This document shows, piece after piece, positions 14,427 to 16,709 of a DNA stretch of 39,531 nt. Origin of the DNA: Cytophagales bacterium (lineage in GTDB: Bacteria; Bacteroidota; Bacteroidia; Cytophagales; Cytophagaceae); assembly GCA_013297765.1 (NCBI GenBank), contig JAAFID010000012.1, forward strand, positions 1 to 39,531, written 5' to 3'. Numbering within the stretch: the stretch's first letter is position 1; every line of letters starts with the position of its first letter. The translations under genes were made by a program, and so were the position numbers. The notes below the pieces were generated by a model. That model searched no databases and was not told the DNA's origin. It was given only the letters and a program-made list of their open reading frames with translations.

Positions 14427-14786
14427 TTAATTTTGTGAATTCTTTTCTTCGAAATCAATAACTTCAATTATTTGGTCGTGTAGTATTGGTATTTTGTTTT
14501 TAATAACATCCCAAACAATTGAATAATTTATGCCTATATAATCGTGAATCAATCTATCCCTCATGCCAGCCATACTTTTCCAAGAGATTGAATTCCACTT
14601 AAGCTTAAAATCTGCGGGAATTTGTTTAGTTGCTTCACCTATTATTTCAAGACTTCTAACTACAGCTCTTTTTAAGGTTTCATCTTTTATAAAATTTTCT
14701 TTGTCAATGTTTTTATCAATTACATATAAAATATAATTTGTTTCATCTTTAATATGTTTTAAATATTCTATTGGATTTTTAAACAT
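14427..14786 (-). CDS. hepT: HepT-like ribonuclease toxin (DUF86/HEPN)
   Basis: 119 residues. The HEPN active-site motif RX4HXY is intact as R76-DRLI-H81-D-Y83. The N-terminus (MFKNPIEYLKHIKDETNYI) and the middle block RSLEIIGEATKQIP are typical of DUF86. HepT proteins are RNases, reported to cleave tRNA or mRNA, and are inactivated when the partner MntA AMPylates the Tyr of this motif. The gene overlaps mntA by 8 bases, as expected for translational coupling. It converges with the SNF2-like gene. Confidence 0.9.
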   Translation of the reverse strand: MFKNPIEYLKHIKDETNYILYVIDKNIDKENFIKDETLKRAVVRSLEIIGEATKQIPADFKLKWNSISWKSMAGMRDRLIHDYIGINYSIVWDVIKNKIPILHDQIIEVIDFEEKNSQN

Positions 14787-15075
14787 ATAATACTTCTTTT
14801 AAAATTGTAGGTCCAATGTATGGACTTAAACCATTTTTAGTTACGACTTCAATTTTTTCATTTTTAAAAATAATTTCAAATATATCTACAACTGCCATAA
14901 AATTATCAAAATTTTCTTCACTTTGCTTGAAATCAATTAGTAAATCAATATCACTATTTTTAGATTGTTCGTTTCTTACATAAGAACCAAACAATCCTAC
15001 ATGCGTTACTCCAAATTTCGAAAGCTCGTTTTTATGCAATTTTAGTTGCGTAATGATGTGATTTTTCGTAGTCAT
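14779..15075 (-). CDS. mntA: MntA-like nucleotidyltransferase antitoxin
   Basis: 98 residues. The minimal nucleotidyltransferase motif GSX10DXD is G30-S31 ... D42-I-D44 within GLFGSYVRNEQSKNSDIDLL. MntA antitoxins transfer AMP to a Tyr of HepT and so block its RNase activity. It is the first gene of the pair and both active motifs are intact, so the module is probably functional. It is only distantly similar to the broken nucleotidyltransferase at 8840-9147, so the two loci were probably acquired separately. Confidence 0.9.
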   Translation of the reverse strand: MTTKNHIITQLKLHKNELSKFGVTHVGLFGSYVRNEQSKNSDIDLLIDFKQSEENFDNFMAVVDIFEIIFKNEKIEVVTKNGLSPYIGPTILKEVLYV

Positions 15076-15156: not shown

Positions 15157-15187
15157 TTGCACATTAAAAAAAAATCGGCTATGTTTG
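15157..15187 (+). promoter_or_regulatory. Bacteroidota-type promoter of the leader-peptide/aminotransferase unit
   Basis: TTG at 15157-15159, 20 bases, then TATGTTTG at 15180-15187, an exact TAnnTTTG. A start site about 5-8 bases on would place the first leader ATG (15199) almost at the 5' end of the RNA. No comparable promoter is seen between here and the aminotransferase. Confidence 0.65.
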
Positions 15188-15198
15188 CAATTCAAATT

Positions 15199-15252
15199 AT
15201 GAAAAGCAATAATACACATATTCTAGTCTTGGTAGCAGTCGCAAAGCGGTAG
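15199..15252 (+). CDS. Leader peptide 1, branched-chain amino acid-rich
   Basis: 17 codons: MKSNNTHILVLVAVAKR then TAG. The run Ile-Leu-Val-Leu-Val-Ala-Val holds six branched-chain residues in seven positions of interest. CTTGG (15228-15232, within the Val-Leu-Val codons) can pair with CCAAG (15253-15257) just past the stop. GGTTC (15257-15261) can instead pair with GAACC (15287-15291), which overlaps the 5' arm of the terminator. That is the pause / antiterminator / terminator arrangement of ribosome-mediated attenuation: a ribosome stalled on the Ile, Leu or Val codons would mask the first arm. The gene is too short for standard callers. Confidence 0.65.
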   Translation: MKSNNTHILVLVAVAKR

Positions 15253-15280
15253 CCAAGGTTCGTTATGTTTAATTGATATT

Positions 15281-15312
15281 AAATCTGAACCATACCAGTT
15301 CAGATTTTTTTA
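15281..15312 (+). terminator. Attenuator terminator 1
   Basis: Perfect 10-base arms AAATCTGAAC / GTTCAGATTT (15281-15290 and 15298-15307) with a 7-base loop and a T run. It follows leader peptide 1. Its 5' arm is also the target of the competing GGTTC:GAACC pairing. Confidence 0.8.
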
Positions 15313-15325
15313 TTTTATACCCATT

Positions 15326-15400
15326 ATGAAAATAGTAAACATCAGTGTCGCGCAACTTTTGGTCGTGGTCGCAAGGCTTCGAGTCGCTGTGCGTTGCTGA
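15326..15400 (+). CDS. Leader peptide 2, branched-chain amino acid-rich
   Basis: 24 codons ending in TGA at 15398-15400. It begins MKIVNISVAQLLVVVARL and contains seven Val, three Leu and two Ile, half of the peptide. The core Leu-Leu-Val-Val-Val (15356-15370) would be the stalling site. Possible pairings are GCAAC (15352-15356) with GTTGC (15393-15397), and GCTG (15396-15399) with CAGC in the 5' arm of terminator 2; these are shorter than in unit 1 and less certain. It appears to be a diverged duplicate of unit 1, reached only if terminator 1 is passed. Confidence 0.65.
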   Translation: MKIVNISVAQLLVVVARLRVAVRC

Positions 15401-15429
15401 GAAATATTTTTACAAATTTATTTCTACCC

Positions 15430-15459
15430 AAGCCCAGCCATTCCGCTGGGCTTTTTTTT
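15430..15459 (+). terminator. Attenuator terminator 2, immediately before the aminotransferase
   Basis: Perfect 9-base GC-rich arms AAGCCCAGC / GCTGGGCTT (15430-15438 and 15445-15453), 6-base loop, then a run of eight T. It ends 32 bases before the aminotransferase start, so expression of that gene needs readthrough or antitermination. Confidence 0.85.
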
Positions 15460-15491
15460 GCTCCTTTTGTCACCTTTAAACCCAATTTTAT

Positions 15492-16709
15492 ATGAACACG
15501 CATACCTTACAATCACACCTTACAGATGGCGAATTTAGCTTTGCCAACCGCATGCAATGTATCCCAAAATCTTTCATTAGAGAAATATTGAAAGTAACTG
15601 CCCAACCCGATGTAATCTCATTTGCAGGTGGATTACCCAATCCACAATACTTCCCTGTAGAGGCTTTGAAAAATGCGGCTATAAAAGTATTTGAGCAAGA
15701 TGGTTGCAATGTATTGCAATATGCAGTTTCAGAAGGTTACAAACCTTTGCGAGAGTATATTGCTATGCGGTACAAATTGACGCAAAATCTAGACATAGAT
15801 CCCGATGAAATTCTTATTACCAATGGTTCACAGCAAGGTATAGATTTAGCTGGAAAAGTTTTTTTGAATCCGCACGATAAAGTATTGCTAGAGTCGCCTA
15901 GTTATTTGGGGGCTATACAGGCATTTTCTGCTTATGAGCCTGAATTTATAACGGTAGATTTGCAAGCCGATGGCATAGATACCAATGCACTAAAAATGGT
16001 ATTAGCAAATCAAAACATCAAATTGATGTATGCCATTCCCAATTTCCAAAATCCTACAGGTATCAGTTATAGTATTGAAAAAAGGATAGCGACTGCCAAT
16101 TTGCTTAGCAATAGCAATACTATTTTAGTGGAAGACGACCCTTATGGAAGCATTGAATTTACTGGGAAACCGATGCCTTCTATTAAAAAATTTCTGAATA
16201 AGCAAACCATTCTATTGGGTTCATTTTCCAAAATTGCATCCCCAGGAATGCGGCTGGGTTGGGTAGCTGCCGACAAAAAAATCATTGCACAAATGATTGT
16301 AGCCAAACAAGCTACCGACCTGCATTCCAATTTTTTGTCGCAACGCATCATTTACCAATTTTTAATGGACAATGATTTGGAAACACACATTTCACAAATT
16401 AAAAATGCGTATAAGCAACAGCGAGATCAAATGCTGGGATGCATTCACAAGTATTTTCCCCAACAAGTGAAGTACATCACTCCTGAAGGCGGTATGTTTA
16501 TATGGCTTACGCTACCACAGGGCTACAATGCTTTTGACCTCTTGCAAAAAGCAAGTGAACAGAAAATTGCTTTTGTACCTGGGGGCACTTTTTTCTTAGA
16601 AGGGAAAGGTCAAAATACCATGCGGCTAAACTACTCCAATACTGAAACACAACAATTAGAAGAGGGCATGAAAAAATTGGGAAGTATTTTGTGGGAGTGG
16701 ATGAGGTGA
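15492..16709 (+). CDS. PLP-dependent class I aminotransferase, LysN/2-aminoadipate-transaminase-like; probably branched-chain amino acid related
   Basis: 405 residues. Fold-type I motifs are present: SFAGGLPNPQYFP near the N-terminus, TNGSQQGIDL, the PNFQNPTG motif, the Asp-Pro-Tyr of VEDDPYG, and the PLP-binding Lys in LGSFSKIASPGMRLGW; MRLNYS carries the carboxylate-binding Arg. The closest recognisable group is the LysN / aminoadipate / MocR-like aminotransferases, which have broad substrate ranges including leucine. No DNA-binding domain is fused. The two upstream Ile/Leu/Val leader peptides argue that its main role is synthesis or use of branched-chain amino acids; that is inference. Confidence 0.88.
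   Translation: MNTHTLQSHLTDGEFSFANRMQCIPKSFIREILKVTAQPDVISFAGGLPNPQYFPVEALKNAAIKVFEQDGCNVLQYAVSEGYKPLREYIAMRYKLTQNLDIDPDEILITNGSQQGIDLAGKVFLNPHDKVLLESPSYLGAIQAFSAYEPEFITVDLQADGIDTNALKMVLANQNIKLMYAIPNFQNPTGISYSIEKRIATANLLSNSNTILVEDDPYGSIEFTGKPMPSIKKFLNKQTILLGSFSKIASPGMRLGWVAADKKIIAQMIVAKQATDLHSNFLSQRIIYQFLMDNDLETHISQIKNAYKQQRDQMLGCIHKYFPQQVKYITPEGGMFIWLTLPQGYNAFDLLQKASEQKIAFVPGGTFFLEGKGQNTMRLNYSNTETQQLEEGMKKLGSILWEWMR

Follow-up and report, generated by a model that had tools for sequence, protein, structure and literature searches.

Tandem Val/Ala-rich leader-peptide attenuators predicted upstream of a LysN-like aminotransferase gene in Bacteroidota

Introduction

Leader-peptide attenuation of branched-chain amino acid (BCAA) genes has been known for a long time. 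In E. coli ilvGMEDA, ilvB and leu, and in the uORF of Corynebacterium ilvB-II, to which this form of control was recently extended (PMC10272879), a leader ORF rich in the regulated amino acid is accompanied by an antiterminator, an intrinsic terminator and a downstream amino-acid gene. Each of these attenuators is a single unit with Ile/Leu/Val codons before an ilv or leu operon, whereas the locus described here has two units, favors Val and Ala (with GTC as the Val codon), and precedes a lone LysN-like aminotransferase gene in Bacteroidota.

Translated tandem attenuators have been described for Salmonella mgtCBR, which its authors termed a singular example (PMC3641672). Two leader ORFs stand in series on one transcript there as well, but they sense different signals (ATP and proline) and serve an Mg2+/virulence operon. 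In the present locus, by contrast, the codon bias is the same in the two units, and an intrinsic terminator belongs to each of them. Riboswitch logic gates were reportedly described by Sherlock et al. in 2018. Tandem riboswitches such as B. clausii metE (cited in PMC3641672) are likewise serial RNA gates on one transcript, but consist of ligand-binding RNAs rather than translated leaders.

For leaders in Bacteroidota, our literature search returned only a remark in a B. thetaiotaomicron map, where leader-like sORFs are listed as candidates only (PMC7366714), and it found no attenuation in Cytophaga; the attenuation survey of Lopatovskaya et al. (2010), which may list Bacteroidetes cases, was outside its scope. 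Relative to the literature compared, and with caution because that survey lies outside it, the new element appears to be translated tandem attenuators of the same bias in Bacteroidota.

Here we analyzed a 39,531-nucleotide stretch of a Cytophagales genome (contig JAAFID010000012.1), hereafter the window. Its anatomy, conservation, complementarity and codon placement, established below, make it very probable that the LysN-like aminotransferase gene is controlled by a series of two ribosome-mediated transcription attenuators that share one promoter and one transcript.

Results

Anatomy of the leader region

The region 5' of the aminotransferase gene contains two consecutive units, each with a leader ORF, a predicted antiterminator and an intrinsic terminator (Table 1). 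The first-pass annotation had placed both leader ORFs, both terminators and the promoter, and all of these positions were correct when checked against the sequence. It had also called the promoter an exact Bacteroidota promoter, which is true of the -7 box, an exact match to TAnnTTTG, and not of the -33 element, which reads ATTG without the full TTTG. The T tail of the second terminator ends 32 nt 5' of the aminotransferase gene. Divergent from the attenuator promoter, at 14427-15075 on the reverse strand, lies a HepT-like/MntA-like nucleotidyltransferase pair resembling a type VII toxin-antitoxin system, which reached the Pfam cut-offs and missed the NCBIfam equivalog cut-offs.

Table 1 Features of the leader region and of one related locus; positions refer to the window unless a locus is named.
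Feature	Position	Strand	Details or basis
Promoter, Bacteroidota-type	15157..15187	+	TTG 15157-15159, 20-nt spacer, TATGTTTG 15180-15187
Leader peptide 1, MKSNNTHILVLVAVAKR	15199..15252	+	ORF call; counterparts in relatives with V-[LA]-V-A core
Unit-1 1:2 hairpin CTTGG:CCAAG	15228-15232/15253-15257	+	Predicted fold
Unit-1 antiterminator helix GGTTC:GAACC	15257-15261/15287-15291	+	Predicted fold
Intrinsic terminator 1, AAATCTGAAC / GTTCAGATTT	15281..15307, T tail to 15311	+	10-bp stem
Leader peptide 2, MKIVNISVAQLLVVVARLRVAVRC	15326..15400	+	ORF call; counterparts in relatives
Unit-2 antiterminator, interrupted long helix taking up the terminator 5' arm	15381..15443	+	Predicted fold
Intrinsic terminator 2, AAGCCCAGC / GCTGGGCTT	15430..15453, T-run to 15459	+	9-bp stem
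Regulated gene (putative), LysN/PH0207-like class I aminotransferase, 405 aa	15492..16709	+	Pfam, structure relatives; ATG at 15492
G008 locus with leader and EamA transporter gene	L014 130-1349	reverse	EamA gene followed by the aminotransferase gene

Both strands of the window contain 554 ATG-started sORFs of 10-42 aa, 26 of which are rich in V/L/I/A (at least 7 of 9 residues). Only two of the 554 combine this richness with an intrinsic terminator behind them, and these are the two leaders, one of which has an alternative upstream ATG. The same filter, run over family loci (941 kb of strand sequence), gave 16 distinct matches, and all but one of these were located at aminotransferase orthologs. 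A long structured leader with terminators could also harbor a riboswitch or T-box. However, no Rfam family (T-box, known riboswitches, leader families) matched at gathering score anywhere in the window, and terminator arms differ between genera while the leader ORFs are kept, so we rejected this reading, whose probability we consider negligible.

Conservation in relatives

We compared the regions upstream of the aminotransferase orthologs in Bacteroidia; the first-pass annotation had named conservation in relatives as a refutation test of its proposal. The layout proved conserved. With the window, G003 and G008 included, a tandem pair is present in 16 genomes, whereas three have a single unit (two g5 genomes and one Bacteroidales MAG) and five have no visible leader (L050, L081, L172, L176 and L177). 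Aminotransferase orthologs of another class (f133 and others) have no leader units. Within the family, the pair occurs in three Cytophaga genomes, four g7 genomes, a g5 genome and G003. In G003, the Val/Ala frame of unit 1 is without an ATG, and a sequence error may be present there. Outside it, where some units were found through the V/L/I/A filter, the pair occurs in two f18 genomes, one f20 genome, Desertivirga (Sphingobacteriaceae) and one Bacteroidetes MAG. The distribution thereby extends over four genera of the family (Cytophaga and three others) and two additional families of the Cytophagales, and also takes in Desertivirga and the Bacteroidetes MAG. Because the two-in-a-row layout recurs in such distantly related Bacteroidota, it appears to be a real, conserved double gate rather than a product of chance.

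In every one of the 30 units measured, the gap from leader stop to terminator falls between 21 and 39 nt. The unit pitch is 127-159 nt in 11 of 12 pairs, and unit 2 begins 14-38 nt past terminator 1, again in 11 of 12. A TAnnTTTG box lies 12-33 nt 5' of unit 1 in the majority of tandem-bearing genomes, among them three Cytophaga genomes, four g7 genomes, the f20 genome and Desertivirga; directly 5' of unit 2 it is missing, which leaves a promoter box before unit 1 only. In Cytophaga (L004, L005 and L006) the box ends 4 nt ahead of the unit-1 start codon, and leader 1 is therefore probably translated from an mRNA that is leaderless or nearly so. Flanking genes of the aminotransferase vary among genera. 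The G008 locus has at least unit 1 and a second terminator, with a poorly defined second ORF, ahead of an EamA transporter gene that lies directly 5' of the aminotransferase gene, which suggests that an amino-acid transporter is under the same control. In L007-L010 the two units have almost the same terminator (aagccccgga...cggggctt). This hints that one arose by duplication or that gene conversion took place, and that the units might cross-pair.

Within genera, changes in the leaders comprise 56 synonymous and 162 non-synonymous codons. There is no synonymous excess, and dN/dS-type evidence of coding was not found, which indicates that conservation does not extend to the peptide sequence itself. 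The lack of synonymous excess argues against the peptides being small hydrophobic (membrane) proteins that have their own function, as does the absence of sequence conservation beyond the Val/Ala codons. Two of them, unit 2 of L041 and unit 2 of f18, do resemble short transmembrane segments, but many others are short and charged (for example MKNTFSVVALVVAARPKVRRK), and the position of the ORFs is locked to the terminator. We rejected the membrane-protein reading as highly improbable. Across orders, sequence, terminator arms and neighboring genes turn over, but the double gate is conserved and its two units share one codon bias.

Antiterminator pairing

Next, we examined whether the segment around each leader stop is complementary to the 5' arm of its own terminator. 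Compared with dinucleotide shuffles, the complementarity was strong across 19 representative units (Fisher p 1.5e-12), although full independence does not hold among units from the same genome or genus. Taken by themselves, the units of the window gave a weak signal (p 0.18 for unit 1 and 0.086 for unit 2), and the case for attenuation therefore rests on the relatives. Pairing with the own arm averaged -15.2 kcal/mol, compared with -10.4 ± 0.6 kcal/mol for permuted arms, and none of 20,000 permutations was as good. This loss of pairing on arm swap amounts to covariation.

The weakness of the individual window units would suit two unregulated terminators behind chance hydrophobic ORFs, which would damp transcription constitutively and sense nothing. 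However, ORF, antiterminator and terminator recur in this order in 16 genomes, and neither the own-arm pairing nor the placement of Val and Ala codons (see below) fits with chance; this reading was rejected as very unlikely. Anatomy, complementarity tests and relatives together support the original proposal of leader/terminator attenuators in tandem before a lone aminotransferase, and as comparative evidence that Bacteroidota use leader-peptide attenuation they are strong.

Ribosome position and the predicted switch

For each ribosome position, the RNA ahead of the ribosome was folded codon by codon as it would be before the terminator 3' arm is made. The mean probability of the antiterminator was about 0.7 with the A site at codon -8 or earlier (0.73 at -10) and 0.13 with the ribosome at the stop. 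In unit 1, it was 0.96-0.98 with the A site at codons I to K, and the antiterminator was masked by a ribosome at R or at the stop. In unit 2, the antiterminator had a minimum free energy of -17.4 kcal/mol with the A site at the third Val of VVV (15368) and was lost once the ribosome was at the stop. When the complete unit-1 RNA was folded to equilibrium, the terminator was favored at every stall position. The model thus depends, like attenuation models generally, on the order in which the RNA is made.

The two unit-1 helices had been proposed to be mutually exclusive. Instead, they have a single base (15257) in common and form together in the predicted fold, and hence do not exclude each other; without a ribosome, their probabilities were about 0.7-0.8 for the 1:2 hairpin and about 0.5 for the antiterminator helix. 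Unit 1 therefore has no classical trp/his-type 1:2 protector hairpin that excludes the antiterminator, a feature that marks the trp/his layout and not all attenuators. In most units the antiterminator probability stayed high with the ribosome far upstream, and, in contrast to trp, we found no protector helix by which transcription of an untranslated leader would be terminated. Given the co-existing helices, the OFF switch is likely a ribosome at the stop that masks the antiterminator strand, rather than a protector hairpin.

From these folds and the codon data below, we infer termination and readthrough, the sensed amino acids and a multiplicative effect. A ribosome that reaches the leader stop would cover the segment around it, the terminator would form and transcription would end. 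When charged tRNA-Val, and probably also tRNA-Ala, is short, the ribosome would stall about 8-17 codons before the stop, leaving the stop segment free to pair with the terminator 5' arm so that RNA polymerase could read on. As RNA polymerase must pass two gates, repression would multiply, and the response to a Val/Ala shortage would be steeper than with one gate. Such a locus would offer a clean setting in which to ask what evolution gains from keeping a second gate, be it dynamic range, sharpness or noise.

Codon bias and the sensed amino acids

The first-pass annotation had assigned the sensing to Ile, Leu and Val. Among the pooled leaders of the 19 units, enrichment was found for Val (18.8% vs. 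5.7% background, p 1e-22) and also for Ala (12.9% vs. 7.6%, p 6e-5). Leu (10.7% vs. 9.8%) and Ile (9.0% vs. 9.2%) were not significantly enriched in these pooled leaders, so that only the valine part stands; f18 is the one family whose leaders are also prominently Leu-rich. Val and Ala together make up 31.7% of codons in frame, compared with 3.9% and 5.7% in the other two frames. Val occupies 63% of positions at codon -10 and 53% at -8, and Ala 53% at -9, a peak that coincides with the stall positions that free the antiterminator segment. The rare codon GTC accounts for 44% of leader Val codons, compared with 8% in the nine window genes that served as background codon usage (p 6e-20). Among the tRNA loci read (L182 in G000 and L209 in G013), from whose lists the rRNA-operon tRNAs are missing, the only tRNA-Val was tRNA-Val(UAC). 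If those operons also lack a tRNA-Val(GAC), GTC would be a poorly read codon.

Two gates in series had been expected to give an AND-like or a sharpened response. A true AND gate, in which both units are attenuators that sense different amino acids, would agree with the somewhat different cores in single genomes (HILVLVAVA and LLVVVA in the window). When pooled, however, unit 1 and unit 2 leaders share the same bias (15.3% and 20.9% Val, 12.4% and 13.2% Ala), and we consider the AND gate unlikely. This shared bias makes a steeper gate on the same signal the likelier arrangement, in line with the sharpened response. A broader proposal is that these loci form a Bacteroidia-wide class of same-signal double attenuators, with protector-less Val/Ala leaders, GTC as the sensing codon and roughly squared control of a LysN-like alanine/valine transaminase; we see the chances of this as evenly balanced.

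The aminotransferase

The product of the downstream gene is an Aminotran_1_2 protein (Pfam) that reached no NCBIfam equivalog cut-off. Its best solved relatives are PH0207, of the multi-substrate type, and T. thermophilus LysN (2egy). Residues S27 and R30 align with S20 and R23 of LysN, which we take to be the substrate-recognizing residues, and both are invariant in the ortholog alignment A1. On this basis, we assign the enzyme as a predicted LysN-like multi-substrate aminotransferase. With A1 as the search query on genome contigs, orthologs showed a patchy distribution: 13 of 19 family genomes, 18 of 390 in the order and 2 of 395 in the class sample. Class IV aminotransferases occur in all 19 family genomes, most of which include a BCAT-sized protein of about 363 aa; the LysN-like enzyme is therefore not the sole candidate for a branched-chain aminotransferase.

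The pyruvate family of amino acids comprises Val, Ala and Leu, and the E. coli alanine-valine transaminase AvtA is repressed by Ala and Leu. By analogy, we favor AvtA as the functional counterpart of the LysN-like enzyme, which would then make Val, Ala or Leu. The leaders point to a role of this unassigned aminotransferase in valine/alanine supply.

Leaders at other amino-acid genes of the family

No leader was found in the upstream regions of ilvD, indicating that the tandem leader is not a general ilv leader. In the same family, leuA is preceded by a leader ORF with its own terminator (L140, reverse strand, 1346-1465; L132; L135; L137). This is a single, Leu-rich unit, unlike the Val/Ala tandem. 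Its sequence is MKSLHYCIFAYLLPKALAIHVG in the window's own genome and MFKSFNILFKTLLLLKVKFSVG in genus g7, and it has a conserved terminator (AAAGCCATTC...GAATGGCTTTTT) and GTTG/CAAC complementarity.
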